A program made the position numbers and the translations under genes. 64,000 nucleotides of DNA from Rhodocollybia butyracea (lineage: Eukaryota; Basidiomycota; Agaricomycetes; Agaricales; Omphalotaceae), in the NCBI GenBank assembly GCA_015501585.1, contig JADNRY010000057.1, positions 186,001 to 250,000 of the forward strand. The letters run 5' to 3'. The notes below the pieces were generated by a model, which worked only from the letters and a program-made list of their open reading frames with translations, ran no database searches and was not told where the DNA came from. Shown here piece after piece: positions 43,338-64,000 of the stretch. Positions within the stretch are counted from its first letter, which is position 1. The number at the start of each line of letters is the position of its first letter.

Positions 43338-45206
43338 ATGGATGGCCGTGAAAATAGCCCTGATTTTTTGCCCAGTAGAGACCGCGGTCCTGTCCTCGAA
43401 GCAGAGGGTATTCAGTGCTGGCTTGCCGCAAGATATACGGAGAGTCCAGACAACATCTACCGACTTGATGCTGGTGGCATATATGAAAATGTCACTGGAC
43501 GAACGAAAACTGTCTCGACCTACATTTATCTACCTCCTGGAGGTTTTCCTAACGGGGTGAGCCCGAACTTCCTCGCATATACTACCGACTTGATGCTGGT
43601 GCATATATGAAAATGTCACTGGACGAACGAAAACTGTCTCGACCTACATTTATCTACCTCCTGGAGGTTTTCCTAACGGGGTGAGCCCGAACTTCCTCCG
43701 CATATACTAGATTGATTTGTTTTCTTGAAGGTGGAGTATGATCTTTACTGGCACACCCTACCTGAAGATCCCTTTCTTGCCGAATTCTCTTCAAAGGCCC
43801 GAATGGAATACAGGATGATTCATTTAAGACTAGCACCTGGATGTGCATTTCAGACCCCACCACACAATCTCGTTCCACCAAATGGTGGCGCGCTAATAAC
43901 CCTATGGAACAAATGTATGCACCACGTCGGGGTATGTATAAGTACTTCCGGGCTCTAGCACGCTCAGTATGTTAAATGCTTTTCCAGCTGCTTTGTCGAA
44001 CAACATGGGGTCTGTGAGTCTTCAACTTCGAAGAATCAACGGATCTGTTCACGTAAAGAAGTCCGAAAAGAAGAGGACAAGGGCGGACCATATCCCCACT
44101 TACGACTCCATTGACAAACCTGAAAGTGACCCATGGCTATCCTTTCAATATAACTCTCTCTGCAACAGCAGTATGTGGAATCCTTGTCAACATGGCGAAA
44201 CCTCGCTGATCTGCAACCCTCAGATAATACTCCCTCCTCGAATGACATACAATCCAACGGCAAAGGGAACCTCGCCTCCACCACGTCCCAGCCACCTACC
44301 GGCACCACCCGTTTGCTACGCTCCTCAGCTTCGAAGGCTAGCAAGCCAACACTTGAGCTATCAAAAAGCCCTGAGCGAAAACGTCGGCGCATATCACCTG
44401 TTACAACCAATCAATCTGGGGATGGTTCTTGTTCTCCGAAGTATCAGATAATTACCGACAGCCCAAGTCCGCAAAGTAACGCCAACAGAGCTCTAATACC
44501 ATCTGCAAGCTCAATTGAAGGACGGCCGAACCCTCGTCTCGGATCTACGCCCTCTGGTCTACCTCATCCCAGTGGTTCTAGTATCCCTCCTCTCGGTAAC
44601 TGTATACCAGTACAACATCATTCCGTAGGAAGCGCAAGTGAGAGAGTTTCTCTCCAAAATCACACTGCAACCTCGCACTCGAAGGTCGAGCATCAGTCTT
44701 CCAGTTCAGTAGCTTTTCAGAACAATACAGGTGATGCTGTCGCTTCAGGCTCCGCATCTGTTCATTGAGTATGATATCGGTTGACAGGACCCCAAGCTAC
44801 GACGACAACTAGCACGGGATTTTTTCAAACGAGCACCAGTAGCCCCACAGCTTCAGGATCAGAAAGCTCTACCGTTCGTGAATCTGAGGCTGAAATTGAT
44901 GTAGCATTTCTTTCACAAGATCACCTTAACGATGTCTAACTTCTCCTGGTTGCAGAGGAAACTTGAAGAGATTAAAGAGAAGAAACGAAAACTCTATGCA
45001 GAACTGGCTGCCCAGGAAATAGAGGTAAGTCGCTCATGTCATTGGTGAGATCTTTTCCATGTTGATTGCGGCCCGAACCTCGCTTGAAGCGCGATCAAAT
45101 CAAAAAGAAAAGAATGGAAGCGGAAGAAGCTGAACTTGAAGAAATCCAGAAGAGGGTGGAGCAAGGGAGGGAAGGCCTGAACGCGCTCAAAGAAGGAAGA
45201 CTCTGA
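43338..45206 (+). CDS. Eight-exon protein of unknown function, nuclear-type
   Basis: Exons 43338-43556, 43731-43931, 43988-44013, 44059-44125, 44172-44730, 44788-44900, 44956-45024 and 45090-45206 keep phase and give 456 residues. The first 140 residues form a globular region (LEAEGIQCWLAARY; TYIYLPPGGFPNG; ARMEYRMIHLRLAPGC). Next come basic stretches and a likely nuclear localisation signal (KSPERKRRRISP), a long Ser/Pro/Asn-rich disordered part, and a C-terminal charged helix (RKLEEIKEKKRKLYAELAAQ; RVEQGREGLNALKEGRL). I do not recognise the family. A 125-bp tandem duplication covers the end of exon 1 and its donor, leaving a second, shifted copy inside intron 1. Confidence 0.65.
43457..43708 (+). 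repeat. 125-bp tandem duplication of exon 1 end plus splice donor
   Basis: Unit 1 (43457-43581) and unit 2 (43582-43708) are nearly identical from CTACCGACTTGATGCTGG to the CGCATATACTA end. Unit 2 has lost GG after GCTGGT, which breaks its frame. Confidence 0.9.
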
Positions 45207-45597
45207 CCTTGTTGAATCATTTGCTGTAAGTTTTTGAACGAGAGGTGACTTTTGGTTAGGAAGGGTGAGTCGATGCCATTTGATACAATGCGGCCTTGTT
45301 GATTGGGAACTCCGCGTGAAGCAGCGTAAAAAATGAAGCGGGTGCCTACAAGCAATAATACCACAGGACAAAGTGGCAGTATGATACCAAGTCAAATACA
45401 AGAGTATAATCGATCCGCACAAATTAAAGCATCGGCTAGTCCTGAGTCACCGTGTCACTGTTACTCAGTGTTCCGTATCCCCCATCTCAAAAAATCACCT
45501 GATCGTGCATAGATACTTAAGACAGGGGGAAATTATCGAGTTGTATTAGAACCTCAACCCGTTTAACGTATTTCTTCAGTCAACCACCCTTAGCGCA

Positions 45598-47716
45598 ATG
45601 TCTAAACCCCCTTAAGTAAGTTCTTTTATGTTTCATTGGTCATTAATACTGATCTACTCGTATACTTTTTGTAGCAGATGATGTCTGGGAACGTCACGTC
45701 AACTCAGTAGATTTCGACAAACAGTGCGCCGTGTGCTCAAGGCAGATTCTCTTGGATCCTCCATACGGTGGGAGCGGTTTTGACTCCTTTTCCGACCGCA
45801 GCAGGCTACGGGAAACGGACTCCTCCTCCTCCTCAGCCCATGATGTCTCTCACTTTGAAGCGCACCTTTACTACTTTGGAATCCGTGGGCCCAGACGCTT
45901 TGGTCCCAAGTTAATCTTCCGGACCTCCAAGGATGTCTTCACGATGCCCTCAGGGTCGGAGCAAGAACAACCTCGTCGCATGCGGCTTCTGCCAGTCTAC
46001 GAGAACCAAGCCCTTGGTAAGGACGACCTATGGGCTGCTATTCGTTCCAAGGTGAATCACGACTTTCTTCAAGTGCAACAATCTATGAACTGACGTTCAT
46101 CTCAAGGTCGTTAAACTGCTCGACCAACAAAATATCCAGCATTCGTCCATCGACCTAGTTCGTTTCAGCTGGGAAGTTGAGGAGATCCAGGAGATCCAGG
46201 ACGACGACCAGGATGTCGAGGAGAAACAAGGCACCGAAGAGAACACGGAGGATGAATACGACCACACTACGTTCACCCTGTCCAGGACAGTCATTACCAC
46301 TCCCGTGACGATTTGGGTAGGAGTCTTGCCTGATACTCTCACTGCTGAAGTCGCATTCCACTCTTCCAACGATATCTTCAATGTCCTCAAGGAGCACGGT
46401 ATTTCTGACATCGATATTGCATACCGCGAGTCAGTAGCCAGAAGCTTCAGTGGTCCCGAACTGTTCGCACCCGCTACAGCGTTCGATCCTCTCAAGACTG
46501 TTATTGATCCCTTAACTACTAAACTTGGGCTACCTATTGCTGATCTGAAGAGGCTCGATCTCCAGGGGATGCTAGGATTCTTTTTCAGAGTGGGTGAAGC
46601 TCTTTACGCTGTGACGGCGCGGCATGTCCTTTTCCCTGCAGACGAAAGCAATGAAATGTACACCAACATCGGTATGTTCTTTTTCTTGACAAGATAAATG
46701 CATCTTGACCACACCTACAAAGGCGGGCCTAAGAAGGTTGTCCTCATGGGCACGAATGCTTTCGATAACTTCATCAAATCCATTCAAGGCTCTATCGGTA
46801 GATTCAATAGCGTGGTTACTGTCTTAGAGAAGCGGGTTCAGTCGTACATGGCACAGTCAGAGGGTGGTGGCTTGAGTTCTACAAAAGTGGCGGACAAGCT
46901 GGTGGAGACTCAACGCGAGCTGAGCGAGACACGCGCGACAATCAAGACGCTCAAGGAATTCTACATACAGATGAGGAAGCACTGGTCAAATCCCGGAGAC
47001 CGGGTTATAGGACATGTTGTCTGGTCGCCTCCCATCAGTGCTCTCCGTGGTTATACGAAGGATGTTTGCGTCATCAAGCTCGACAAGACAAAGTTCGAGT
47101 CAAACTTTGGGGGGAATGTGCTCGACTTGGGTATGTGCTGATTCGTTTCGTCTAGCTATAGGCATCTAATCCGAGTGCTTGGATTTCAGGCCCTGAGATC
47201 GAATGTGGCAAATTCATGCAGTTGATGTCCTCTCGCATCGATGCGCCGTCCGAGTTTGACTATCCATGCGACCGTCTCTTTGAACTCCAAGGCATTCTCT
47301 CGCCCGAAGAGGTACGCACACGCAAGGATACAGACCACCCCATGCGATACGTTATCAAACGCGGCCTTACCACGCTCACCACGATTGGTTGCTTGACTGG
47401 ATTTGAGTCCCATGTTCGCCAATATTCCGCCCTAGGCAGCCGCGATTCGGTGGAAACAGCAGTCTTGCCCTACTACCCCTTAGACCCTTTTTACCTCCGT
47501 AACCCTTTCCACGACTTCGGTCTGTTCTGCAAGGGCGGGGACTCTGGATCCATCATTGTTGACGCTGTCGGCAAGTTCGTTGCGCTCCTCACTGGTGGCA
47601 CGGGTTCAATAGATTCCCCCGACATCACGTATGGTTCGCCAATGCACTGGCTCTGGGAGATCATCAAGGTCCAATTCCCTGGTGCCGACCTCCGCTTCGA
47701 AAGGAGCGACAACTAA
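45598..47716 (+). CDS. Trypsin-fold (PA clan) protein, intracellular type
   Basis: Exons 45675-46051, 46107-46671, 46723-47130 and 47190-47716 keep phase. The triad can be read as His in YAVTARHVLF (about 46610), Asp in YTKDVCVIKLD (about 47060) and Ser in CKGGDSGSIIV (about 47530), the GDSG motif of chymotrypsin-like peptidases. There is no signal peptide. An acidic segment (EEIQEIQDDDQDVEEKQ) and a predicted helical insert between His and Asp are features of an agaricomycete family with unknown substrates. The first exon is uncertain: ATG 45598 leads to an in-frame TAA just before a good donor (GTAAGT at 45616). One more base in the preceding C5 run would bring it in phase with exon 2, so the gene has either a one-base defect here or another start. 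Confidence 0.7.
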
Positions 47717-48132
47717 GTTTGCTGCCTGATCCTCTTGTAATTATGCGTTTCGTATCGTTTACTTCTCCCCTCTCCTGCCATTTACCCTATATGTGTATGG
47801 TTATGAACGTATGTGTACTACATGTATATGTGTCTGACGTGTTATAACCATTCTGCACCCAGTCCTTCAGAGTGATAGACTATCAGAGCAGGACCGTGAG
47901 CTGCTGGCACGTCTCCGACTTTTGGAACTTATACTGCGACGCTCACAAGGTAATTTCGTGTACAAAACGAAGTATATTTGAAACGAAGGAAGAAGAACAT
48001 AGTTACATAAAGAAGGCCACATAAAGCATAGATAAGCATAAGGATAGATAACAGAATAAAGATACGAATTGCATAGAAATGATATGCGAGGTCGAGAGCA
48101 AAGTGATATGTACTTGGACGAGTCGCCAAAAG
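47717..48132. other. Space between convergent genes; orphan exon-like stretch
   Basis: At about 47872-47950 a plus-strand stretch reads SDRLSEQDRELLARLRLLEL in an open frame, with CAG before and GTAAT after it, like a coiled-coil exon without a gene. The rest holds the 3' ends of the flanking genes. Confidence 0.35.
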
Positions 48133-49218
48133 TCAGATCCAACGTCCAGTAGAAGGGGCGTCATACACCAAACGCTGGTCCTTCATATGCCACCCACCCT
48201 GGTTCATCAACGTCATGTACTCAATCGCTTCCTCAGTGGCCTCATCCAAAAGGTTATCAAGATCCCGATCCCCCGTGTCCGAAGCCCTGCACAACGTCTC
48301 TTCATCATCGCTACTCCATTCGCGTTCCGTAGAGGAATGGTCAACGCCAGAGCCGTCAGAACGGCGTCGGAGATTGTTCGCCAGTTCCTGGAAAGCATGG
48401 TCGAGTGCTTCGATAGTGCATTCGCGCACTTCGGACTCGGAAGCATCGGGGTGAGTGGAAGAGGCGAAGGATTCCCGAACGCGTTCCATTTTGAGGACCA
48501 GGTCGGCTAGGTCCCGGGTTGCAGAATCCAACGCGTTACGGGTCCCTATAGAGGCGCGCGCGATGTCGTTGAATGAACGGGATCGTCGGACGGCTTTGTT
48601 ACGCGGGCGGCGCACGCTGGTATTTTCGGGACGAGCCAGATTGAGAGTAAGGTTGCTTTTGTTGGTGGAAGTCATGCCGATAGTGGCGGCCCTGGAAGCG
48701 TCGGATGCGTGTCTGGTACGACCGAAATGGAATAGAGATGTTCCTTTGCGGGAAGGTGCGATTGTCGGCGACACGCTGGCGGAATCGGAGGTGGTTGTGG
48801 AGGGGGATATCAAGGCGGGACTAGCGGAAGAGATGCCTTTGGAGGTATCTGAAGGGAGGAGTTGTCGCAGCTTTTGCTTCAAAAGCTTTTTGAAACTGAG
48901 TTTCGCCTTTACTTCGACGTCAGCGGCGGCCATGTTCTCCTCTTTTTCTGCGAGACGAGCGAGACGCGTAGAAGAGGGGAATAAAAGATTAGGCGCGTCG
49001 GAATGCCTAGGCTTTCGTTTGGGAGGTACAAAGGTGACTGTGGTGTAGCTGTCGGACACGGAGGAGCAGAAGGTGATCTTGTGATTGTCTTCGCTGACGC
49101 AGGCCATGTGTCTGTTGGAAGCCTTGTCGTTGGGTACACGGCGAGCGTGGTGGAAGCGACGACGAGCAGATTCTGACTCTGAGGGAAAGCGTATCGACGC
49201 GGGGGAATGAGTAGGCAT
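48133..49218 (-). CDS. Basic, Ser-rich intracellular protein of unknown function
   Basis: A single uninterrupted frame of 361 codons from ATG 49218 to TAA-type stop at 48133. The N-terminal third is basic (ESARRRFHHARRVPND) and contains KLSFKKLLKQKLRQLLP near residue 115. The middle is Ser/Thr-rich with a second basic cluster (RRPRNKAVRRSRSFNDIARA), a plausible 14-3-3 or kinase site region. The C-terminal third is helical and acidic (LADLVLKMERVRESF; LDHAFQELANNL; LDNLLDEATEEAIEYMTLMN) and ends KDQRLVYDAPSTGRWI. No signal peptide or membrane helix. Family not recognised; the conserved-looking C-terminus suggests a binding module. Confidence 0.65.
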   Translation of the reverse strand: MPTHSPASIRFPSESESARRRFHHARRVPNDKASNRHMACVSEDNHKITFCSSVSDSYTTVTFVPPKRKPRHSDAPNLLFPSSTRLARLAEKEENMAAADVEVKAKLSFKKLLKQKLRQLLPSDTSKGISSASPALISPSTTTSDSASVSPTIAPSRKGTSLFHFGRTRHASDASRAATIGMTSTNKSNLTLNLARPENTSVRRPRNKAVRRSRSFNDIARASIGTRNALDSATRDLADLVLKMERVRESFASSTHPDASESEVRECTIEALDHAFQELANNLRRRSDGSGVDHSSTEREWSSDDEETLCRASDTGDRDLDNLLDEATEEAIEYMTLMNQGGWHMKDQRLVYDAPSTGRWI

Positions 49219-50283
49219 GGTGGTTGATAGCGAGCTGAGGATAGTTGGCTAGTTATAAGCATGAGGCTGAGATGTCGTTATTTATCCATAGACAATGGAT
49301 CGACAGGCCCAGTCAATTGTTCCTCGTCCAAATATGGCAATCCGAGTACCAAAAGCGTACATAAATGAACTGATGTGGTCAACAATGATTCACAATAGCT
49401 CACTTAATTTGGGATATCCTGTATTATCCTGAGAAAAGGAAGAGCTGTGAGGCCAGTGGCCACCATTGTCACCTTTATCCATTTGGTTCAATATAAGTCA
49501 AAATAACCATAAGTAGCAGCTGCAGTTGGTGATGTGTACCGTTCAGAATTTCTCAGCACTCCAGTAGACAATGCATGGATAGATGGACAAAGTTCTGATT
49601 GGTCTACTAGCCGCCGGATTCACAGGCCAAAGGGTCTTTCTTGTTGTCCAAGCATGACTTTGGGAGGCCTCCGATGTTGGCGACTCTGAGTTTGATGACC
49701 AGCACAAGAGGAGCAAAGAGCAAAGAAAGAGATGAAGAAACGCTAGGCAGAAAGACTCGAAGAAGGTAGTAGGAAAAGCGAGATTGACGAAGATACGGTG
49801 TTGAACGTTGATGCATGATGTGTTGGAGTCGGAAGTTGTTTGATCAAAATACGGGGTGCCCCAATATGGGTTGCTCAAAAAGACTCACGATAGTTTGGAT
49901 ATTTGAATGTGAGTGTTCATTCGGTTGTTTTACATGGCATTCGCGACGTTGTGCAGCTCACTATTTTCGACTAAAAACCCAAAACTATTCGATAAACGCA
50001 GAACCGGTACCTGTATGCAACTGCCCCGGGTAGAGTTTTTCCGTCGACAGGCCGCAGAACACCATCGTTTTCGTTTTTTAGAATAGGGATTAGAATATTA
50101 GAGCTCGAGTAAGAATCAGCGGTTCAGCGAGTGACAAACTCGAATCGGGAATCGCTTTGACCTCCGGACCGACTCGACGTGCACCGCTTTACGTAAGTAA
50201 CCTCAGGTCGTTTTCCAGCTTGGCGAAGTCGATCACACCTGGGATCCATTCGAACACTATACGCGGAAGGATGGCGATTACGA
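49219..50283. other. Intergenic; one small minus-strand frame
   Basis: A 69-codon minus frame at 49607-49816 starts MHQRSTPYLRQSRFSYYLL and ends with GGLPKSCLDNKKDPLACESGG-like composition. It could be a small secreted protein but has no support beyond being open. Confidence 0.3.
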
Positions 50284-51234
50284 TTGACTAGGACTATTGA
50301 GAGGAAGCCATGCGATTTGAGCGCGACTACGTCGGAGGAGGATCAGGATTCCGCGGACCACATCATATCCAGCATGGCCAGGACGTTGTATCAGTCGATA
50401 GTCTGGCCCATAATCGATTTCCACAAGACCTCCATTGGCAACCCTAGCCGTCATCGACTCATCCTTAGTGGGCACTTTGGTATCGGTATGTATTTGAGCT
50501 CGGCACTGGCCTCGGTTCGCCGTACTACGACTGACCTGATGTCTGCCAAGCAGGAATCTATCATTATGCTTTCAAGCAACCCATTCGACTTTACACACAT
50601 GAATTCCCTTCAACTCGTCATTAGACCACGTCGGTTACACTACCACTCATTGCGATCTTTCTTTCCAATACCGCTATTCGGGAAATGCTGCTCCGTCATG
50701 ACGATTATTCTCATGGACTGTCGCTATAGGTTGTCACATACATCCACTACGAAGCGAGCAGGCGGTCTCCGTTTGACAGCGCTATTATTATGTGCTACGA
50801 TTTGGAAACATAGCTCGCACACTGCTTTCAAATACACGCCGAAATCGCTGGGAATCTGAAGTATGCATCCCATCTGGCCTCACTAATTTGGCGCAGCGAC
50901 CTCTGTTGTTGGGAAACACACACGCGGTATTGGCTGTCGCTAATGTCCGTGCTTCTACCTCAAGCGTTATCGAGGCTTTACTTTTGATTACGAGCATCCT
51001 CGTCCATTATTCAATGCTTATTAGTACTGCTTATTGTTCTTATAGAAAAGCGTCGCCCACGGAACTATCAGAGTCATACGAAGGTTTTCGTTATTGCCAC
51101 ACATTCCAGTCCAGCAGATTTTTCAACCGGTCATGCTATTGCGATAGCAGCAATTCGGATGGCCTCTCGTCTCTGCGAGCAGCGGGACTGCGCAGTTCCT
51201 TATGGCCATACTAATTCAGCAACACCTCTCACTG
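50284..51234 (+). pseudogene. Decayed gene, possibly CHAT-domain-like
   Basis: The frame from about 50284 contains ADHIISSMARTLYQSIVWPI and then SRHRLILSGHFGIG before a GTATGT donor-like site, with GIYHYAFKQPI after it. This recalls the segment of agaricomycete CHAT (caspase-like) proteins in which a helix ending in VVxPIL is followed by PTGPLAFLPxHAAGIY. No catalytic His or Cys motif can be recognised downstream, and stops interrupt all frames. A second coding-like stretch at about 51080-51210 (VFVIATHSSPADFSTGHAIA) is unassigned. I treat it as a remnant, with real doubt about the family. Confidence 0.3.
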
Positions 51235-51857
51235 GAATAAAGAGAAGGATGGTGGTGCTCTACGAGTGAACGCACATAAGTATGATTGCTAACGGACGTT
51301 AGTGGACGTCCTATATTCCTGTGTCTGAACTTTTGCTGTAGGTGACTACTCTACGATATTTGGGGCTCTTCGGCGAATTTGGTGAAATCTCGATTCCATA
51401 CTTCCTAAGAATACATCGATTGTGTTACAGGCTATAGGCTATAGAGACCGTGGCAAGATAAATAACAATAATAATGAGATCAGAAGAGTGCAAGCCTCCG
51501 AAGAAGACGAAGGGAGAAGGAGGAAAGCAGAGCAGGATGCAGTCAAGGAGTCGGCGACATATAGCCACAAGAGTATGGCAGAAGCAAATAGAAACCATAA
51601 TGTAAGGAGTGGCGGAAACCAGCGTAAAGCTTGGTCAAGAGCGAGTGAGTGAGGAGGGCCGTTGGGCACGAGGGTTCAATGGACAGAAAAAAGAGGCCAA
51701 CTATCAAAGTGACCGTAGTGATGCTGATACAAGCTAGCCTATAGGTCGAATATGATCGTTAGCGAAACCGTGTCACGCCAGGCGAGCGCGAAGAAGGATC
51801 AGACTAACCCTTGTCTAACCTGAGTGGAAAAATGAACTGGCAGGAGGATCGGTAGGG

Positions 51858-51865
51858 TATAAAAG
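51858..51865 (+). promoter_or_regulatory. TATA-like box pointing across pheromone gene 1 antisense
   Basis: TATAAAAG preceded by GG, about 116 bp beyond the 3' end of pheromone gene 1 and facing it. No plus-strand gene starts with ATG behind it. Role unknown. Confidence 0.25.
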
Positions 51866-51980
51866 ACAAGAAGGGACCGCTGAAGAGGCACAAAGTTGGT
51901 GTCCTAATTGGTGAAGTCGGTGCTGAGTACGATAAGGGTCGTGTGGTTAACATTACGAACCTCCGTAGCGCCTGCGTGAA

Positions 51981-52163
51981 TCATGCGATTACGCAGAAGG
52001 TGGTAGCATCGCTGGCTCCAATGGCTTCTGCGTCCACGGGGAGCTCTGGCAGCGACTGCTGTGTCGGTAACGACTCGTCAGACCAGACTAGGCTTCGAGG
52101 GGAGTCGACGGAGTTTATTGAGGAGACAGCGAAGAGTGTTTCGATAGAGGTAAAAGAGTCCAT
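51981..52163 (-). CDS. Mating pheromone precursor 1, CVIA CaaX end
   Basis: 60 codons without intron. It begins MDSFTSIETLFA and ends FCVIA, a CaaX box (Cys, two aliphatics, Ala) for farnesylation, C-terminal proteolysis and carboxymethylation. Start and end match the precursor at 55203-55394 (MDSFSSLETLFA; LPVDxEAxG near the C-terminus; CVIS), while the middle differs, which is the pattern of basidiomycete lipopeptide pheromone precursors. The mature peptide would be the last 10-15 residues before Cys, cut out of a discarded leader. Its start lies about 2.0 kb from the receptor start and it shares the receptor's strand. A TTTATAAA box lies 106 bp upstream. No signal peptide, as expected for export by an ABC transporter. 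Confidence 0.85.
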   Translation of the reverse strand: MDSFTSIETLFAVSSINSVDSPRSLVWSDESLPTQQSLPELPVDAEAIGASDATTFCVIA

Positions 52164-52268
52164 TGCGAGTAAGATCTGGTAAGGGTTATATGCGACTCTC
52201 GGAAGGTAACAAGGTTGGAGGTTGCGCGGTATGGATTTCTGGGAACTCGAAAGAGTAGTTTATTCCGC

Positions 52269-52276
52269 TTTATAAA
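52269..52276 (-). promoter_or_regulatory. TATA box of pheromone gene 1
   Basis: TTTATAAA lies 106 bp before the ATG at 52163. The other pheromone gene has TATAAAA at a similar distance (124 bp). Confidence 0.5.
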
Positions 52277-52656
52277 TGTTTTCAAGGCCGAACTGTTGGA
52301 GGAACAATAAGAACATTGTCATTGTCGTTGGCCCATTATCCCCCCATCATCTATTGTTCCCATTTGGTAACACTCCTTCCGTATCCGTGTCTATTGTTGT
52401 AAAAAATGATGCCGAGTGGTGCCGGCGCCGGTTCGATAATGGATTTGGTATCGCTGTTTGTCTCCCGAAGGCAGACCTGAAAGCTCTTGACACTTACGAG
52501 TCGAGATACGGTTAGACGAAGTCGCGCATGTATATCTCAACAGAGTTGGTATAGTTTAGAGTGGCTGAAGTTACAATATAATACGACAAACACTAGTGTC
52601 GAGGCCCGGACTCTGACCAGCGCAAGTAACGTAGATACAAATACAGGTTTGTGAGT

Positions 52657-54168
52657 TCATATAGCATGAGGAAAGTGTATGTTAGAGTCGTCACAGTGTA
52701 GTTCAGTATAATGATCGAAATGGCTCGGTGTAGTAGGGCTAGAGCATAAAGTAGATGAAAAATCAGAAACAGAAGATCTGGCTGGTGATTCAAGAGGAAA
52801 GTCGTTGGTATCTTTAACGGTATAAAGTGGAGGAGCGGGTGACAGGGTTCGAGTTGGAGAGGGTATACTCCCGCTGTCGATATTGTATTTAGAAACGGAA
52901 GGAGTGGAAGGTAGCTTGATAGATAGGTCACCCTTCGATAAGGGCAGTCTAAAAAAAGTAGATAAATAGCTGGAGGAAATGACTGTACAGTGGGACTAAC
53001 CGTTCATCATTGGAGGAACTTTTGATGTGGAGTAAACGTAGCAGAGCACGGAACCAGAGACTATAGTGTCGGCGAGCTTCTTCCGCAAAGCCGAAGAAAG
53101 CGAAAAAGACGAACGAGCATGCGACGGAAGCCCATCGCGTGAATTGTATGCCCATGAAGAATATTGGGTCGGCGTTGTAAACAACGGAAGGGAATTGATC
53201 CACTCGGGAAAAGTCGATGTGAGTATTGGCAAGACTAATCCAAGGACCAATGGGGGACTGCGTAGCGCTGAGCCAGATGAGGTAGATACATAGAGGTATA
53301 GTGCATAACATCTCGGTCATGGCGAGAGCCATCAGTCGGAAATACCGCCCGATAGAGAGGGCTTTGTTGGTAGACATGAATTGCGCAAACTCGAGTCTGC
53401 GTTGAGCAAAGGCACGTAACGAAAGGACTGAGAAGCGTCATCAGATGCTTCGAAACGAGTGAAGAAAACGCGCTACTGACCGCAATAGATGGCAGAGCCA
53501 ATGCCGAAGAGAAGGGGCCAGGAGTAGGTGATGAAATACATAGGGAGAGAATTGTAAATTGCAGGTAAACAGCCTATGTCTTCGTAAATGTTGAAGCGAT
53601 GTCCTTGGACGATATACTCTAATGCCACTTATTAGACTCGTTCAAGCTGGAATGAAGTAGCTATAACTCACGCAACGCCACATATATCATAGGCCACAAG
53701 CCGCATATCAGACAGTCGATGAGGATAGCCCGGCGTTTCTAGAAATATTATGCAGGTTATTAACGCTGAAAAGCAACAATGACAATAACGATGCCTACTT
53801 CCGCGTGGGTTATGGAAGCAGTTCGAATCGCCGCTATACCATAGAGCCGTTTGATGATGCAAAACGACGCCGCAGGAAGGCTGACACTGGTCGCCATTGT
53901 TATACGTATAGCTACCAAAGGTCAGTCAAAGCAACGAGACGAAAACCAGACGCGTACAGATATCACACCATACAGGTGCAGAGTTGATAACGTTTCCTTT
54001 CCATATTATCGAGTTTACGAACTGGTTGAGGCACGAGATAGATGCCCAAAAGATATAGAAACATGTCCCGGAGTTCAGAGCTTGAAGATGCCACGAGAGA
54101 GGAATTAGAGGAAGGATAAAACCTAAGAAAGAGAAGATCGGGAACAGTGGGTAGTCGAGGTTAGCCAT
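52657..54168 (-). CDS. STE3: STE3-type mating pheromone receptor (GPCR), six exons
   Basis: Exons 54168-53958, 53911-53799, 53738-53672, 53627-53481, 53427-53001 and 52948-52657 keep phase and give 418 residues. The STE3 marks are in order: PLSWHLQALNSGTC and CLNQFVNSIIWKGN around helix 2, APVWCDIS before helix 3, LPAASFCIIKRLYGIA, KRRAILIDCLICGLWPM in the next loop, LEYIVQGHRFNIYEDIGC, YFRLMALAMTEMLCTIPLC, and FFAFFGFAEEARRHY after helix 7. The tail of about 120 residues is Ser/Thr/Pro-rich, as expected for a receptor desensitised by phosphorylation. It binds farnesylated pheromone from a compatible mate and signals through a G protein and MAP kinase path. ATG 54168 (MANLDYPLFPIF) is chosen because the upstream codons are only TTG-initiated. 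Confidence 0.93.
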
Positions 54169-55072
54169 CTGAAGTTGCAAATGGGGTCGTATGTGGAAGT
54201 AGGAACGCCCATTGTTGCCTCAGTATAAGTATTTTGTCAGTCCTTTTGTGGTGAACAATGGGGTTTTCAATGGTACTTGGACAATGGAGCTTCGTTTACT
54301 CGGTTGATGCCGGGCCGACCGTGAGAATACTAGCCGATTCTCGAGTTGCGGCTCTGACGTTGCTGTGCCTCGCTTCTCCTGGTGCATAAGTTAGGCTTTT
54401 CTGTGGTTGGATACTGTGACAGCCATCATGGATACTTGTTTCCCTTCACTTCGTTTTGTTGCAACTACTTATTCGATATTCGTTTCCAACGACTCGTCTA
54501 AGGTCTTATTACTTTCGAACCCGGCTTCACGTCCGAATGATTGGCATCCTTTCTGAAATTTCGACTCTATCGCTTGTGGTACGTTAATTCCGAATGGACT
54601 ACGTGAGCTCAGCTACACACCTCAATTTGCTTCGCAGTTTTCATGACGACTTAACAACGCGGTGGTCAACCCGCTAAGCAATGTGGACGAGTCATAGAAC
54701 TTCAACTGGAAACTATTATAAACAACTTGAACTCTAATTTATCTGTTCCGCAGCTATTTTCCTTCAACTCTGGGAATCCTCCTGCTCTTGTCCTCTTGCT
54801 CTAATAAACTCTTGCGGGATCAATTTCTTTATGGTTCGCTAATACTTCGCTGATACTTTGCGACAGCGATATGATATATATCATCTTAGTCTCCATGTAC
54901 TTGCATACTCTTCTGCGCCTGAAGGCGGCTGTGAGGTAAGGAATGGACCTTTCGGCTTTCGTATGGGAATAATCAACGACAAAAGCTTAGAACAATGGGC
55001 AATTGGACAATGTGTCAGTCGAAGTGCTTCGTTCATTGTTCTCTTCGGAGCACATGTACAATGGCTGAACAG
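54169..55072. other. Intergenic region between receptor and pheromone gene 2
   Basis: No gene recognised. The open frame 54858-55103 has no CaaX end and no recognisable content. The segment must hold the divergent promoters of the receptor and pheromone gene 2. Confidence 0.45.
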
Positions 55073-55079
55073 TATAAAA
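55073..55079 (+). promoter_or_regulatory. TATA box of pheromone gene 2
   Basis: TATAAAA 124 bp upstream of the ATG at 55203, in a context CAGTATAAAATGCGC. Confidence 0.5.
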
Positions 55080-55202
55080 TGCGCTTGTTCATCTTTTCTT
55101 TAACCAATTTCCGTCGTAGCTCTAACTATCGAGTCTCGCTCTATTAGTATCCTACTACTTTTCTACTAGTGCTATCGACTTCTCACCCGATCTGCTCACG
55201 CA

Positions 55203-55394
55203 ATGGACTCATTCAGCTCTTTGGAAACATTATTCGCGCCTGCGTCGTCTAGATTGAATGGTGCACTATTAGAGAACGACTCTCACTCCGATACTCCATC
55301 ATCCGCCGACTGCAAATTTTGTGCTGTTAATTTGCCAGTCGATTCTGAAGCTGTTGGCTCTGGGGATATCAATGGTTTATGTGTTATATCCTAA
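55203..55394 (+). CDS. Mating pheromone precursor 2, CVIS CaaX end
   Basis: 63 codons without intron, beginning MDSFSSLETLFAPASS and ending CVIS before TAA, a farnesylation-type CaaX box. The C-terminal part LPVDSEAVGSGDINGL corresponds to LPVDAEAIGASDATTF of precursor 1, so the two genes are paralogues. The stretch between leader and C-terminal part has no similarity between them. It is divergent from the STE3 gene, with about 1.03 kb between the two starts. Export and processing would be as for other basidiomycete lipopeptide pheromones; the two mature peptides probably address different receptors or specificities. The exact N-terminal cleavage site cannot be read with certainty. Confidence 0.87.
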   Translation: MDSFSSLETLFAPASSRLNGALLENDSHSDTPSSADCKFCAVNLPVDSEAVGSGDINGLCVIS

Positions 55395-55904
55395 GGTAGG
55401 ATTTATTTGCTTGAAGCTTGTGGGCACATGGATTGATCCCCTCGACCTTAGATCCTTCAAGTCGAGCTAGCTCGAGTCTTCGTCTTCAGTCTATACCATT
55501 CTCCTGCGATGCCATTCTTTGCCTTTTCCCTATCTATTTATTGCCAGGCGAGTCCCTCCGTTGATCGGCGTTCGCGCTTTACTGAATCTCTTCACATCAG
55601 CAATATCATTGACTTTGATAGTCGACCCCTCCTAATCTCCCGTCATCCTTTCGACTGCTTTGCTATACGAGTCCCAGAATTTCTTTATACTGCTTCTATA
55701 TCCAGCTGACTTTGCGTCATCCATTCCTTCATCTTATTGATTTATTCAGCTAACTTATATATCTATTTGTTTCGATCATCCGCCTTCCCTTCGTATTCTC
55801 TACGGCGGTTTGTACTCATATGAAGTTCTTACACGTTCTTTTAAGTATTAATGTCCTGGGCCAGTCTGTATGTACTGTAGCCTGTACCGTTGTAACGTTT
55901 TAGA
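55395..55904. other. No gene recognised
   Basis: One frame at 55509-55709 (MPFFAFSLSIYCQASPSVDR) lacks a CaaX end and any family feature. Confidence 0.4.
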
Positions 55905-56099
55905 TATGTGCTTCCAGACGCAGAACATCTCACTATCTGATTTTAAATGGTGTCAAAGCCTCTCGCTGGGACACCAAGCTACTGCACTGACTGTCTGCTA
56001 CAGTCTTTCGCCATCACACTTGGTCGAGGCCCCACCGCAGCAAAATGTTGGGCCGGAAGCCGCTTTCCGGCATGTGTTCAATGTTGGAAGGAAGGAAGG

Positions 56100-57890
56100 A
56101 AGGAAGGAAGGAAGAACCGGCGCGGTCCCACTTAGGAACAGCCGGGGCCCGCGCAACACATACTACGCCATATGTGCCGCGGATGCACCCACCCAACTCT
56201 GCTGTGGCAGGATGAACCCAATCACCCCGGCGCACAGAGCCAGCTGCGTACACGAGTACCGTACAGTTAGGCGCAGACTAAATACATATTCAATCATAAA
56301 ACATAAAGGTCTTATTCGAGCTATGTAGCGTACAGGTGTGGATCAGGGATATAAGGTTCCTGCCCCGAGAAGATACCTAGTACATCGAATGCAAATTTTG
56401 CAGTTAAGGTCAGAACCCGCAGATCAAACAAAAATCTACAGAGGAAATCATAGTTGGATAGCCGTTGTTGAGCCTTCAGCAAATCCGGCGCTAATGCCTC
56501 CATATCCAGCATGAACCGCTGTCGCACATAGACCAATCCCAGGTGACCTTTGCATCCCAGCAGTGCGTGGCACTCGTCCTCCACTCCCAGTCTACAGAAT
56601 CGGCACAACCTGAACTCTCGCGGGACGCGTGGTCTATACCGTTCATCATAGCGTAGGCGTTCCACTGAAAGAGCATGACTGGAAGTTACCAACTGGGTGA
56701 AGGCATGGCGGTGCTTTGGGACCGTGATAATGTGGAGGTACGGCTGGAGCTGCAAACTTCCTGTGGGTGCGATACTGTTTCCCCGAGAATCGTAGTTGAC
56801 CCTGTGATGTAGGAGATGGACTCTGACTGCCGCCTGGACATCATTAGTGACAGACACCCAGCACACTGACTTGACCTCATCTGCAAGCAACACGAGCTTG
56901 TCAATATCCATAAGGTCATCTGTCGTGCACAGAACAGGTATAGGCAGTGCCCGCAGGACCAGGCACAAATCATTCAACCATGCGGGGTGCCCACTACGCA
57001 CCAGCAACAGTGAGTTTTCCAAAGCGTCACGAGCAATCCGGCGGCCAGGCAATTGAAGTAGGGACTGCAGATATGTTATAGCTAGGGAGATACGGCGATA
57101 GCGCAGAGGTTGAACACCCAGCTCCAGAAACAAGGGTGCGAGGATAGACCGTCGTCTCACCCCCAACAGGCGGCGCAAGAACATATGCTGAACCCCTTCC
57201 AGCTCATTGAGCAGTGCAAGATCAACATCCAAAGCGATCTCAGGTCAACCCTGGCCATATACAGGATGACTCCTTCCTGCGGGGGGAGGCACCCAATCGC
57301 GGATTCCAATGCAAAGGAAGCCCGAGCAACGTTCCTTGCCTTGGAAGCCTTTGGACCATAATGCCCTGCAAGAATGTAGCGATGGTCCGGCACAAAGTAT
57401 ACACCCACATATTTGTAAGAGAGAACCAGCTCAATTGCCGTTCCATCCACCCAGAATGTGGGCAACATCCTAGGTGCTGGGCCAAAGAGCATCCACTTGG
57501 TTTTCTTAACACTGATTTCCATGGAGTTCCGACCGCACCATAAGAAGAAAGAGTCTAGCTTCGCCTGGAGGCCAGCCGCTGTCATCGACCATATTGCCAC
57601 ATCATCAGCCTGCTCAACATGAGAAATTGGCCGAGCGTTCAGATATGTGTCGTCAATGTGCACCGGAATGTTCAGGTCTGAGAAGTAGACATTCCAAAGA
57701 GTCGGTGAGAGGGTGTCACCCGTGAGGACCCCAATGAGACTGCGGAACGCCGCCGAGACCTGACCACCATGACGGACAACATATGTTGGAAATCGCTGGA
57801 AACTGCTGTATATGATACAGCGCCGGACAACGTTTTGCTGATCAGGGTTTGAACGCGGGTAAGCATGTAAATTCTGGTTTGAGATGACTT
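56100..57890 (-). mobile_element. 5'-truncated non-LTR retrotransposon (LINE)
   Basis: The minus strand encodes the C-terminal half of a non-LTR reverse transcriptase: GVLTGDTLSPTLWNVYFSD (with the preceding QRFPTYVVRHGG) and the catalytic region HVEQADDVAIWS, in which ADD replaces the usual xADD, then SVKKTKWMLFG and YKYVGVYF. After a frameshift near 57240 it continues for about 300 codons to 56321, including the zinc motif CRFCRLGVEDECHALLGC typical of the end of LINE ORF2. The 3' end carries a (CTTC)n tract at 56088-56116 rather than poly-A. Everything upstream of the reverse transcriptase palm is missing. It splits block C. Confidence 0.85.
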
Positions 57891-57959
57891 GGCTGTTCTC
57901 GACTCTGGTTCTACCTTGGTACTAGTCATGCTTGTACCACAACAGTTCGTCTGTTTAGA

Positions 57960-58870
57960 ATAGAAATGGATATTAATGCTATCCAGCTGCTTTCTGTCCG
58001 AGTCAATAGTACCGTCCTACTATTGACAGGTGAAGAGATAACTGCATCGAGATATCTGGCATTACCGCGGACTTCATCGGGCAAGAAAAGGTTTCGGTTG
58101 CTGCTAACAAGCTACGAGACAGTGCCTTTTCCCTCTTGGACGACAATGGTCTGTGAAACATGCATTGCATCCGCCTCGATTTGGCAGTTGCACCTCTTTC
58201 TATCACTTCTCCTTCCAGCTGCTGTGAGTGACCAAGATACAATTCTGCATCGGTACTAACATTAAGTCAAGTTTGGAATACTTCTTTATGTAAGGTGATT
58301 AATGAGCAACATTTTCCAAACCCTGAAGCTGAAAGGTTGGAATAATTATAGGAATAATTATAGGAATATTCCTAGCCAGGAAAGCTATACGTTATTGCAG
58401 CGCTCTTGTTTTTCCCGTTGACCACTTATTCGGCCATAATGGATCTATTCACCAAACAGATTGCCCTTTTTGCATATATCAGCTCTCTTTCTATCTTGGA
58501 CATAGACCATGAGCTCCTTAATCAGGCCGGTCCTAGAAGGTCCTAGAGGAGTAAAGCTCGGTGACGTGTTGACATGAATCTTCTTTGCCACCAGGTTTGT
58601 CTCTCCAAATGAGAAACAAAGTTTTGTTCACGGAAATGATGATCAACATAGTATTCTCGAGGATTTAGTATTGGTATGTTGTACATGCTCAACAATATGT
58701 TCAAGTTCGTAAACGGGGACGCTTAGATACATCGATGCTATCGTCTGTGGAACGCCAGAAAGATAGTCATCGTAGTGCCTCTCGGAGTATTTCTCACCAT
58801 CGGTACATGTAGGCCGTGTACGCCTCAACATTAACTCTCCCCGGACTTGTCTACTATCTCCCTTATCTAG
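57960..58870 (+). pseudogene. Seven-helix orphan membrane protein, copy C (truncated)
   Basis: Matches the first five exons of copy D: the N-terminal hydrophobic exon (FLSLLLPAA before a GTGAGT donor), VLPLTTYSAIMDLFTKQIALF-like helix in shifted frames, and YRLWNARKIVIVVPLGV at about 58745-58790. The segment coding for FGLSVYIFQRKMM is deleted near 58360, and nothing after helix 4 is present. Non-functional. Confidence 0.6.
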
Positions 58871-59153
58871 AACGTAGTATCCATTTTCTAGTTGGTCCCG
58901 CCAAGATGCCTTTGTTTACACTCTCGCCAGATGACTATGATACTAAAAGAATTCCGGTGATCTCCACTAGATGTATGTAGATTATTGTAGCTCGAAACTG
59001 GAAATCGAAGCGACTCGGTTTCATGTTTAAACTATCTATAATATATATCATGATGTTCATATTTCTCCTTCTCTGCACCTTCAAATCATTGGTTGATCAG
59101 TGGCGCAGCACCTTTCGTCAAGTTCAAGTCAAACTAGTGGGTCTTACAGCTAA

Positions 59154-59513
59154 TTAGGAAACTCTAGCACATTTTCGAAAAAATACTCATGAGTGATCTT
59201 GTTTACAACCAAACAAAGGTGACGTTGATGTAGGTGACCCAGGCACGTACTGGCCCACATCTTGACTTCAAATTTGCTTCAAATGCAACTTTTTTTTTTA
59301 CAATATTGCAGTCTTTACATGAGATGTACATTATAGGGTGCTGTAGACTCATTTCCCGGGCTACTGAAGAGCATAAGAGTATGCAAGTACAGGTGAAGTG
59401 TCGCCGAAGCGGAGCGAATGGAGCTTTGAATGGAATATTCTGACGTCACTTTGTTTGGTTGTAAATAAGATCACTGCTGAGTGTTTTTTCGAAAATGTGC
59501 TAGAGATTCCTAA
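59154..59513. mobile_element. 360-bp MITE with ~70-bp terminal inverted repeats
   Basis: TTAGGAAACTCTAGCACATT at the left faces GCTAGAGATTCCTAA at the right. The inverted arms continue through TTTTCGAAAAAA, GTGATCTT, TTACAACCAAACAAAG and a GTGACG motif, about 70 bp with few mismatches. The interior has no ORF. Target duplication is not clear. Confidence 0.7.
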
Positions 59514-61160
59514 GCAGCTGTAAATTCCATCTCGAGTCGTTCTTAACCGTATGCATATTTTATATGCATACGGATTCAATCCTCTTGACACTGACAGGGG
59601 TCCTACTGATTTATTAGCAAATGATCGCAACCCAGCTACCCAAATGTGGGGAACTCGCCCACAACTTCGAATTACAGTGCGTAGAAGGTCTATAAACTCT
59701 TCCTTTTCTCTTTCTTTTTTCCTCTTTTCTGAACTTAAAAAAACTTGAAAAACTCGTTCTCTCCAGACTCAGGACACGAGCCCAACTTCGACGTGTCCTG
59801 TTGCCGTTTACTACTCCCCCGATCTCGCTGGAGCGTGATATCGTATCGCTCCACCCTTTGACACCATCCCATACTGGCCCTCAACTGATAAGTCTGTAGT
59901 TCGAATCTCTACGCATCCCAGACATCCGATATCCACATCAGCAGCATTGGAAAATGGCAGGTGTATCACCTGTAGGCTTTCAGTGCAGTGGTAGCGCAAC
60001 CAGAGAAGTCGTAAGGACCATAGAGGAATATTTGGCATGGTCATTCTGGCTCGCTGCTAGTTGTAAGGACGGTCGGGAGTAATTCAAGTTGACACAGTCT
60101 AAGATATGTATGAACGTTGAACGTACATTGAACAGTAGATGGCCGAGGCTCCCAGGGGAATTATAACTTGGTAAAATAGAGCATTTGTGATGTACTATTG
60201 AGACATACACAATCGATTCATCTGAAGCGTAATAAACCATGTAACGCATTCAAGGCTCAAGGGAACTACATAGAGAGCTGTACCGTCGTCTGCTGGGTTC
60301 AAACAGGTTCAATAGATTGGTTGCCGGTTTGCTACAAGGGAAGGATACGGGGAGCGTTTGCGATCGAGGTATTGGTTTCCTAGGAACTTCAGGTGAAAGA
60401 TCCTCTACGTCTGACACCTGAAGATGGCACTCACTTGCATCCCAATTTCCTGGCCTTTCTTCAAGTCACGCTGTTCAATCTAGCGCGCTCAAAGGGTACA
60501 AAAACACACTGGAAAAACTCGGTAATCGATCTTCGAATCCATATAGCTTCGAGCTCGAGAGGTAGGCCCATACCCCATATCTATCTCGCTCTTTGTTCCT
60601 TGGGTGGATATGTAGAGTGGTTCTCTGACAACGCGTACAATTCCTCGGAACGAAATCTGTATAAGGAGTTGGTACGTTTTCGAGTATCTGTTTTCCACCT
60701 GTTGGGATCTGGGCTGGAGTCCCGCTATCTCGTATGCCCCGGGATAACTATAGGGGTAATATTCCTACCTTTCGCTTTCTTTATTCCTTCAATGTCGTTA
60801 TCTTTCTTCCATTATTTTCTTCGCTATATTCTTCTGCCGGGCTGCAGTATTTAACTTAGAGTATTTACGACGTAGCACCCCAGTTGATTCACTTGTAGTG
60901 CCCTGGGGTGCGTACTTATCTTTTATCTAACTTTACAGCTTACTAACTATCGTACCTTCAGATATCGTATTAATTAGTTCTACACCACCGGATGAAGATT
61001 GGATGAGCGACAAGCGTTGGGTGCGGTTGGAGGTGAGGAAATGTTGTTTAGGGCCGTTGCTGTAACAAGTGCGTCGACCATCGTACTGGCCACCAAGACA
61101 GCTCAAGAGTGCAGAATAGGCGCCAGCGCGCCTACTCAAAATTTAGCAAGTACCAGTAGC
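59514..61160. other. No gene recognised; weak open frames
   Basis: A plus frame at 60198-60383 (RNKPCNAFKAQGNYIESC) recalls a TPR start, and 60393-60854 (MKDPLRLTPEDGTHLHPNFL) is open but unrecognised; they could be exons of one decayed gene. A short inverted repeat, GCACCCCA and TGGGGTGC, lies at 60875-60911. Confidence 0.3.
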
Positions 61161-61349
61161 TCAAGATGCTCTACAGACTACTGTGCTTTTCTCGCAGGTC
61201 GCTTCTTTTGGGTCTGTCTCGTGACATATCTGGCCAACCATTCTTCGGTCGAGATTCATAACGCGTAACGCGTAGCCGTCAACGACAATCTTGAGCGCTT
61301 CCCTGCCAATTCCCTGCCTTCTTCCTTTCTCGTGGATTCCAACAATCAT
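61161..61349 (-). pseudogene. GNAT acetyltransferase remnant
   Basis: The minus frame has GIHEKGRRQGIGREALKIVV followed by DGYALRVMNLDR. This is motif A of GNAT acetyltransferases, with the R/Q-x-x-G-x-G acetyl-CoA loop (RRQGIG) and the helix after it, plus the start of the next strand. The rest of the fold, including the usual V-x-x-x-N-x-x-A segment, is missing in all frames, so only about 50 codons remain. Confidence 0.45.
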
Positions 61350-61447
61350 CCAAGCGATTGTTTAGCGGCTAATAGGACGTCATATTAGATTCGCCTTGTG
61401 GCTGTGTCCCCAACGTCTCGATGTCTATAGGAGGTAGTGGTGTAGTC

Positions 61448-61486
61448 GGCGTGGTCCCACTGGCACTTAGGAAAAGTTGGGATAGC
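61448..61486 (-). mobile_element. Very short LINE 3'-end fragment
   Basis: CGGCGTGGTCCCACTGGCAC and the following TTAGGAAAAG match the extreme 3' end of the LINE at 56116-56145. About 35 bp only. Confidence 0.4.
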
Positions 61487-61502
61487 AGGAACTTGCAGTG
61501 AT

Positions 61503-61777
61503 TGTTGGATATCACAAGATATCAGTATCATTGTTATGATTGATCAAGCTCATAGTTATCTCACACTCATTATTGACACGTACTTACACGTACTTATTTC
61601 CTATCACCCCCATTACCAGTATATAAGTAGTAGCTAGATATACGCTACCTCATCCGATTGCCCCTCTCTCAGTGCTGTAGGGGGCAAACGGAATATATTG
61701 TGCTTTTCACTTTATTCTGCCATTGTGCTATATATTATCCTGAGTGGTAATATTGTGTTCTATTTTATTATCCAACA
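61503..61777 (+). repeat. Copia-type LTR, possibly solo
   Basis: TGTTGGAT at 61503 and ATCCAACA at 61777 are inverted termini. The TATA box GTATATAAGTAG lies at about 61619. GTGAT before and GTGGT after the unit agree in four of five positions and could be a target duplication; alternatively GTGGTTTC is a primer-site start. Confidence 0.5.
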
Positions 61778-62007
61778 GTGGTTTCCTATAAATCTTGTTT
61801 ATAGGTTCGCTAAAGGTTTCAGAATGTCAAGTAACTACGGTCGGATGTGATGTTCAACGCTAATTCATGTCGCTGGCCAACCCAACCCAAATTCTCAGTG
61901 TTATTTGCACATGAACTCGGCTTTTGAGGCACCTCACATCTGCATCTTATTGGTTTCATATCACTATGGTTGAACAAGCCTAATTCATCCAGAAGGACTC
62001 TTGCTAG

Positions 62008-64000
62008 CGCACTTGCAGAAGCGCAGAACATCTCATTCCCTAACTGCAGATGTCGTCAAAGCCTCAAGCTAGGCCTCAAGCTCAAGGGTTGGCTCTCTTC
62101 CTGACTCCATGCTCTGAACACTGTCTTCCTTTTCTGCTTCAGTCTATCGCCATCGCACTTGGCCTACCCTTGAATGTTTGAATGTCGACAAGTATGTACT
62201 TAAATCCTGTAGGCACTAGGGGAATTTGAAAAGATGGTTCTACCTTAGAACTAGTCGTGCGTGTACCACAAGAAAACGAGTATTACCTGCCATCTGTCGA
62301 TAGTTGTTATTGACAGGTGAAGAAATGACTGCACCGAGATATCTGGCATTACCGCGAACAACAGACGTATCATGATTGTTGTTGACTCGGATTAAATATG
62401 GTGTCTTTGTCTGACAGTCGCCTTTCAGGCCAGGCAAGAAAAGGTTTCGGTTGCTGCTAACAAGCTGTGAGACAGCGTGCTTTCCCTCCAGGACGACGAT
62501 GGTCTGTGAAACATGCATTGTATCCGCCTCTATCCAGTTTCACCTCTTTCTATCGCTTCTCCTTCCAGTTGCGGTGAGTGACCAAGATACAATTCTGCGT
62601 CGATACTAACATTTAAGCCAAGTTTGAACTACTTCTTTATGGTGAGTAAATCGAGCCACGTTCTACAAACCGTGAAGCTGAACTTAGATCGGAATGATTA
62701 TAGGAATATTCTTGAGCATTTTCGGTCTAAGTGTCTACATTTTCCAGCGAAAGATGATGCCGGGAAAGCTATATGTTATGGCAACGCTCTTGTTTTTCCT
62801 GTTGACCACTTGTTCGGCCATAATGGATCTATTCACCAAACGGATCGCCCTTTTTACATATATTAGCTCTCTTTCTATCTTGGACGTCGACCAGGAGCTC
62901 CTTAATCAGTCCGGTCCTACAGGAGTCAAGCTCAGTGATGCTTCGACATGGATCTTCTTTGCCACTAGGTTTGTCTTTTCTCTCTGAATGAAAATCAAGC
63001 CTTGTTCACGGGAAGGATTTAGTATTGGTATGTTTGTACAGGATCAACAATATGTTCAAGTTCTTAGACATGGAAGCTTAGATGCATCGATGCTATCGTT
63101 TGTGGAACGCTAGAAAGATAGTCATCGTGGTGCCTGCTCTCGGAGTAGTGCTAACCTTTGGTACGTGTACAAGTCCGGCTTGAGGGCATCCAATCCCAAT
63201 CACAAACTTACTCGACGATAGCTTTTGGAGTCTACTCTCAACGCGTGTTTCCGAAAATCCTGGGGCAAAATCAACAGGAAGATGGAAGTTTCTTTGTCGT
63301 TTATGTTTTCGCTGGGATCACCGAAGGGCTCATCCTTACAGGACTACTGGGTTTGACCACAACTCACGCATCCTTATATAAATTAATGATGCTTAATGAT
63401 TATAGCATCTAGGCTTTGGTGGCTGAACCGTCGGACAGAGAGAATCCTTGGAAAAGGTTCTGGAAGTACAGTTAGGAACCTTATGGTAATCTTGTATGGG
63501 ATGATTGTAACTCGGTTTGGATTTTTTGGCTTAGATTTGTTTAGCATAGAATCTGGGCTGCTCCTGCCCGTCTTTTTGGGTATGGCGTTGGCAATGAATG
63601 CAGCTACATCGCCACTACTGGAAGCTATCGTATTGGAGGGGGGTGGAGCTGGTGCTCCAGCTGTGGAGGATAGTGCGCAGGCTTTGCCGATTACAATTCG
63701 GTATGGTGCACAGATTTTAAGTGTTTGTGCGCTCACGCAGGTCACCGTGAGTAATGTTCGGATGTCTTTACAGGTTACTACTGACTTCCGATTCCCGGCG
63801 CCAGGCCATTGCTTCGACACTGATTCTTGTGCGCATAGGACTAGGAGTTGACGTGCAACTCACGCAGTTCCCTGAAGGCACGCGTCGTACAAATGTGTAC
63901 AAAGAGTCAAGCCCAGATCTGGAGCGTCTTTTCATGGATGATTCCAATCCAGCTAGCATCCATCCTTTTTCACTCAAATATCATGACTTACCTTCAGGGC
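62008..64000 (+). repeat. Duplicated host block, copy D
   Basis: Partner of 55905-58870, without the LINE and without the deletions of copy C. It continues to the right edge. Confidence 0.7.
62499..64000 (+). CDS. Seven-helix orphan membrane protein, copy D (intact, cut by window edge)
   Basis: Exons 62499-62573, 62623-62641, 62704-62972, 63016-63027, 63082-63160, 63222-63350, 63406-63746 and 63805 onwards keep phase with no stop. Helix 1 spans FELLLYGIFLSIFGLSVYIF. Then MPGKLYVMATLLFFLLTT, HRCYRLWNARKIVIVVPALG, GSFFVVYVFAGITEGLILTG, SRLWWLNRRTERILGKGSG in the cytoplasmic loop, ESGLLLPVFLGMALAM, and ASTLILVRIGLGVDV after the last helix. The final residues, HPFSLKYHDLPSG, run off the window. 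Unlike copies A and B its second exon junction has a normal GT donor. Family: agaricomycete-specific, function unknown, probably plasma membrane. Confidence 0.75.

Follow-up and report, generated by a model that had tools for sequence, protein, structure and literature searches.

Does the STE3-type receptor gene that lies between two small genes on contig C905 of the litter mushroom Rhodocollybia butyracea belong to an active mating-type locus, or is it a paralog outside mating? The gene stands in a stretch of 64 kb (C905:186001-250000, hereafter the window) of an assembly of 95.6 Mb in 1381 contigs. The initial annotation, made from the sequence alone, had described a complete six-exon STE3 receptor and two genes of 60 and 63 codons ending in CVIA and CVIS as the established makeup of a pheromone/receptor (P/R) locus, and had held its role in mating to be an inference open to check by receptor phylogeny and allele comparison. 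The evidence presented here indicates that this is very probably a functional, heteroallelic Bbeta-type P/R mating-type sublocus with two anciently diverged alleles, one on C905 and one on C769, for which long-term balancing selection would be the best reading. The P/R genes are most likely the means by which R. butyracea tells a compatible mate from self.

According to the list of open reading frames (ORFs) and the spliced model, a CVIA precursor gene (gene A, minus strand), the receptor gene (minus strand) and a CVIS precursor gene (gene S, plus strand) occupy positions 51981-55394 of the window (Table 1). The two small genes proved to be ORFs exactly as annotated, and both belong to PF08015 (fungal mating-type pheromone), with protein scores of 30.2 bits for gene A (scored without its first Met) and 23.8 bits for gene S at a cut-off of 22. 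The receptor gene runs from 54168 to 52657 with six exons and five GT-AG introns and encodes a complete protein of 415 amino acids (aa), matching PF02076 (STE3) at profile positions 1-292 of 292 (E = 1.8e-99), so that the annotated P/R makeup stands in all its parts. The acceptor of intron 3 was reset after comparison with public relatives, which shortened the model from 418 to 415 aa; the Pfam match and the database relatives were computed on the earlier 418-aa model. Its best protein match is R. butyracea P0001 (99% identity over 77% of the receptor), a public model that ends at 335 aa by running into the fifth intron and lacks the C-terminal tail; the tail of the 415-aa model resembles the annotated one of Collybiopsis confluens P0002. 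Across the whole assembly, PF08015 gave five matches at E <= 10, two in the window, two on C769 and one on C959, the weakest being gene S (E = 0.07, 20.9 bits alone). Both window genes lie no more than 1.1 kb from the receptor gene, and since STE3 genes are few and two of the five precursors flank one of them in each of two places, this is not chance. A profile of the two CVIA precursors (the search was confined to these) led to one candidate annotated protein, the C769 precursor itself.

The second allele emerged from a scan for ORFs of 30-110 aa with a CaaX-like end in eight further stretches with STE3 matches. Pheromone-like precursors were found on C769 only, where a CVIA precursor (14513-14692, minus), a receptor (15326-16834, plus) and a CVIS precursor (17179-17361, plus) follow one another. 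The first five exons of this receptor have the same lengths as in the window allele (211, 113, 67, 138 and 427 bp). Precursors, promoter block and flanks keep the same order and orientation on both contigs, with the receptor alone inverted. C769 can be aligned to C905 along its entire length, the core and one 0.9-kb insertion excepted: positions 1-4401 and 4273-5918 correspond to window 39149-45225 (98.8-99.0% identity), positions 6846-12249 to 45219-50573 (91%), and positions 19362-47792 to window-coordinate 62118-90615 (mostly past the window end; 98.7% over 28.4 kb). A flank of 1401 bp occurs in exactly two copies in the assembly, 100% identical. Divergence on the left sets in gradually, over about 6 kb, identity still being 100% at 42-44 kb and down to 84-85% at 49.5-50.5 kb, after which the alignment largely stops. 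No alignment with E <= 1e-5 covers 51-53 kb; identity is 68-69% over most of the receptor and 93-96% at 62.5-64 kb. Alignment with shorter words adds small pieces of the core, among which are gene S in full and the last part of gene A. The few remaining matches that break the order come from repeats and from a receptor exon 1 relic on C769. By sequence, then, C769 is the other haplotype, carrying the other allele of the window locus, and both haplotypes, presumably from a dikaryon, are represented in the assembly. The exon 1 relic (C769 18519-18608, minus) lies about 1.7 kb past the C769 receptor in the orientation opposite to the intact gene; it may have been left behind when a duplication or inversion reoriented the receptor.

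The two receptors differ far more than any other STE3 pair compared in this assembly. Over the first 298 residues their amino-acid identity is 75.8%, with a proportion of synonymous differences (pS) of 0.788, saturated and beyond correction, and a proportion of nonsynonymous differences (pN) of 0.13; over the whole protein it is 68.4% (402 aligned residues). In comparison, the control pairs C147a/C1114a, C484/C182 and C147b/C1114b show 99.7% (pS 0.005, 288 residues), 99.0% (pS 0.033, 305 residues) and 96.6% (pS 0.027, 297 residues), respectively, the last value being a lower bound because the C1114b model is partly mis-spliced or disrupted. The pair comparison excluded C717b, which has no partner among the matches, and C717a and C1020, which are fragments only. 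As the control pairs are near-identical, the divergence belongs to the P/R locus and not to the two genomes, and the allele comparison proposed by the initial annotation thus disclosed strong divergence between the two haplotypes of one assembly. Around the control receptors, a CaaX scan of 10 kb (L009, L010, L012, L013) found no pheromone-like precursor, and PF08015 had no match on their contigs; the C147 and C1114 stretches (L009, L010) share one unrelated 46-aa ORF ending in CAFS. Only the window/C769 pair was found both divergent and flanked by precursors. C147b, considered as a second mating receptor, was ruled out: its haplotypes are near-identical, its relatives are conserved (85% identity to a 36-member Lentinula cluster) and the search of its surroundings yielded no precursor. 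P0162 was likewise dismissed as a further receptor, since by eye it equals P0123 for the first ~230 residues and then follows a different exon model. For the C1114 copy of C147b (about 19450-20600), the gene model is poor at one exon junction and towards the end of the transmembrane part, which may reflect either a gene disrupted in one nucleus or just a modelling error.

Phylogeny would place the split between the alleles before that between genera. The window receptor had 931 database matches, the best 120 of which were taken as its relatives. One tree comprised 29 hand-chosen rows of these together with four R. butyracea receptors, and a second 19 of the 29 rows with the two alleles, without the long branches C147b and C484. 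In both trees, one clade unites 13 receptors from Lentinula, Collybiopsis and Rhodocollybia and divides into two halves, with one R. butyracea allele in each: L. edodes P0012 and L. aciculospora P0013 join the C769 receptor (bootstrap 99 in either tree), and L. boryana P0003 and L. edodes P0005 join the C905 receptor (bootstrap 82-94). Forcing the two R. butyracea alleles into one clade costs 75.9 log-likelihood units (approximately unbiased (AU) test, p = 5.0e-7), which is the trans-specific polymorphism that the earlier reading had left to be looked for. One clade for all nine Lentinula rows (p = 1.9e-6) and one for the four L. edodes rows (p = 1.8e-52) were rejected as well, these two test groups having been named only after the first tree. 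The first 300 residues of the window receptor share 90% identity with L. boryana, 87% with L. edodes P0005 and 75% with its own C769 allele. The receptor allele lineages would thus be shared between Rhodocollybia and Lentinula, the Lentinula rows being assumed to be allelic.

Assignment to the Bbeta sublocus follows from the pheromones. Mature peptides were predicted by placing the cleavage ahead of EA, following Table 2 of PMC7288658, and compared with the 14 mature L. edodes pheromones given there with their subloci. L. edodes Bbeta consists of RCB2 with PHB3, 4, 7, 9 and 10, the mature pattern is EA...D..FC, and RCB2-1 shows a 59-fold response to PHB3 and PHB9, which have the same mature peptide (PMC7288658). 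The window peptides EAIGASDATTFC (CVIA) and EAVGSGDINGLC (CVIS) best match PHB7 (10/12) and PHB3/PHB9 (10/12), and the C769 peptides EAPSSGDAIAFC (CVIA) and EAVGSGDVIGFC (CVIS) best match, the former narrowly, PHB4 (9/12) and PHB3/PHB9 (11/12). The best match is therefore a Bbeta peptide for all four predicted pheromones of the two alleles, with 0, 0, 1 and 1 of 2000 shuffled interiors, respectively, reaching the best score. Of the 12 residues of the CVIS peptide, 3 differ between the alleles. The closest receptor relatives among the matches listed belong to Lentinula and Collybiopsis, and none is labelled RCB1 or RCB2; a Balpha reading of the window locus, whose nearest L. edodes receptors bear no sublocus label, was overturned by Table 2 of PMC7288658. 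A fifth precursor lies on C959 (33211-33381, 56 aa, ending in CVIV), 1.2 kb from the contig end. Its predicted peptide, EHPDEGSSVADTGFC, best matches Balpha PHB5 (0 of 2000 shuffles reach the score). No second copy or allele of it was found in the assembly, nor any STE3 match on C959 in the assembly-wide STE3 search; the Balpha receptor is either missing from the assembly or lost.

The promoters of both alleles share a short motif. In six P/R promoters (2233 bp), ACAATGG ranks first of 1753 7-mers by enrichment, a rank that is independent of motif choice, and occurs 10 times against 0.46 expected; the two contigs hold 32 copies in 111.8 kb, these 10 included. The motif was noticed before testing, and the two alleles have related promoters and backgrounds. 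The block upstream of gene S (window 54963-55042) is 84% identical to C769 16976-17056. The degenerate form ACAAWGG is mildly frequent window-wide (30 matches where 18.5 are expected, a number attained in 1 of 100 shuffles), and the C147b promoter has no ACAATGG. The core resembles HMG-box sites, and its enrichment in the promoters may be taken as a regulatory hint. A literature search listed no paper containing the motif.

How such a locus would work can be outlined. Pheromone processing, farnesylation, receptor activation and the downstream events are established for the family. Each nucleus would make one STE3-type G-protein-coupled receptor together with two farnesylated peptide pheromones released from CaaX precursors. 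Its own pheromones would not fit this receptor and a pheromone of the other nucleus would; the response would lead to nuclear migration and clamp fusion. Because a PHB3/PHB9-like CVIS peptide is encoded by both alleles, and a nucleus that is self-incompatible should be deaf to the peptides it makes itself, recognition between the two nuclei probably falls mainly to the CVIA peptides, EAIGASDATTFC against EAPSSGDAIAFC, and the CVIS peptides may be aimed at a further, third receptor class. It is conceivable, though rather doubtful as a whole, that recognition runs via CVIA only, with CVIS silent between these nuclei and kept for the third class, that pheromone and receptor lineages predating the Rhodocollybia-Lentinula split persist as matched sets, and that the lone flip of the receptor between fixed precursors acts as a lock against crossing-over that would join a receptor with its own ligand.

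These results bear on three other explanations. That a paralogous non-mating STE3 happens to adjoin pheromone-like genes is hardly credible: non-mating STE3 genes do occur in mushrooms, as described in PMC8877449, and at least three further pairs of receptors are present in this assembly, yet those three are near-identical between haplotypes, no precursor was found round them by either search, C147b falls in a conserved lineage, and the window/C769 pair alone combines divergence with flanking precursors. The inference of a mating locus drawn at the outset thus gains support from allelic divergence and trans-specific polymorphism. Very improbable, too, is a duplicated paralogous block within one nucleus. 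Two loci on two contigs would fit it, as contigs alone do not prove separate nuclei; however, the 1401-bp flank is present exactly twice, the assembly holds other STE3 loci twice, and a block residing in both nuclei would yield four copies unless collapsed, while C769 is collinear with C905 except for the core and the one 0.9-kb insertion.

Finally, the P/R locus might no longer decide mating type, as in bipolar mushrooms where the homeodomain (HD) locus alone does. Saturated synonymous divergence, ORFs open in both alleles and lineages shared with Lentinula make this improbable; what favours it is that the HD locus was not identified in the assembly. PF12731 had no match genome-wide and none in 14 controls either, and hence says nothing about HD absence. 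PF05920, PF00046 and PF01432 gave 5, 8 and 6 matches (the last on two contigs) in the assembly search, the homeobox and M3-peptidase matches all lying on contigs other than C905 and C769, and no HD1/HD2 pair was recognised by eye in the translations round the five PF05920 places.

Several points nevertheless weigh against a heteroallelic Bbeta-type mating sublocus as described here. With the HD locus not identified, tetrapolarity is not shown. The Bbeta assignment rests on the pheromone peptides, there being no receptor labelled RCB2 for comparison, and EAPSSGDAIAFC barely favours PHB4 over PHB3 and PHB7 (42 against 41 and 41), which sets its type weakly. The tree rows were picked by hand from the best 120 of 931 matches, and those of L. 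edodes could include paralogs, in which case the pattern would partly reflect old duplication. The division of labour between CVIA and CVIS is one that we infer, and the CVIS peptides do still differ between alleles. As to the motif, no ACAATGG lies within 400 bp of gene A in the window and none at the C959 precursor, and the promoter of the conserved receptor C484 has two in 331 bp, though no precursor was found nearby; together with the prior sighting and the relatedness of the alleles, this means that the count overstates independence.

Table 1. Features of the P/R sublocus in the window (window coordinates).
Feature	Coordinates	Strand	Remarks
Pheromone precursor gene A	51981..52163	-	60 aa, CaaX = CVIA; predicted mature peptide EAIGASDATTFC; ORF and PF08015
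STE3 receptor exon 6	52657..52948	-	292 bp including stop; encodes C-terminal tail
STE3 receptor exon 5	53001..53427	-	427 bp, spliced model
STE3 receptor exon 4	53481..53618	-	138 bp; acceptor placed by ALQYIVQGHRF, conserved in relatives
STE3 receptor exon 3	53672..53738	-	67 bp, spliced model
STE3 receptor exon 2	53799..53911	-	113 bp, spliced model
STE3 receptor exon 1	53958..54168	-	211 bp, spliced model
Receptor promoter, three ACAATGG sites	54209..54287		sites 54209 (-), 54255 (+), 54281 (+)
Gene S promoter block, two ACAATGG sites	54963..55064	+	sites 54992, 55058
Pheromone precursor gene S	55203..55394	+	63 aa, CaaX = CVIS; predicted mature peptide EAVGSGDINGLC; ORF and PF08015
Divergent core of window allele	50574..62117		collinear alignment stops at 50573; 78-83% pieces at 61318-62118; near-identical flank from 62118

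Besides the features in Table 1, the divergent core holds a reverse-transcriptase fragment (57160-57921, minus; PF00078, 29.9 bits at a cut-off of 29.6). The window also carries a U2 spliceosomal RNA gene (40456-40646, plus; 112.8 bits) and a tRNA gene (36854-36955, minus; 47.9 bits).

Loci of this kind have already been described in several mushrooms, and the R. butyracea example is well supported. One study, by its title, reportedly deals with ancient trans-specific polymorphism at basidiomycete pheromone receptors. A literature search for Rhodocollybia butyracea and mating returned nothing on its mating locus at the level of titles and abstract openings. In L. edodes, each sublocus has one receptor with usually two precursors, and Bbeta likewise combines one receptor with two CaaX precursors, to whose mature peptides those of R. 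butyracea are alike at 10, 10, 9 and 11 of 12 residues (PMC7288658). The sequences differ, C905 having a PHB7/PHB10-like and a PHB3/9-like peptide and C769 a PHB4-like and a PHB3/9-like one, and a correspondence of each R. butyracea allele to an L. edodes Bbeta haplotype is only suggested. The matB loci of L. edodes SP3 and SP30, two nuclei of one cultivar, also have mating receptors with precursors beside precursor-less receptors alike in both nuclei; Balpha and Bbeta both have receptors there, whereas no Balpha receptor was found in the R. butyracea assembly (PMC8877449). In Flammulina PR-b, the orientation of receptor and precursors is reported to have changed between two assemblies of one strain (PMC5100862).

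With R. butyracea, both alleles of a mushroom P/R sublocus and their flanks can be read from one assembly, and the allele lineages shared with shiitake form a ready set for asking which few residues decide pheromone-receptor specificity. A further comparison is offered by Trichaptum, which belongs to another order. Its MATB locus likewise shows trans-species polymorphism under balancing selection, and the orientation of STE3.2, STE3.4 and the precursors varies among strains (PMC8970355). Trichaptum MATB has four putative receptors in 30.3 kb (PMC8970355), whereas the R. butyracea locus has one, which is inverted alone between the two alleles.

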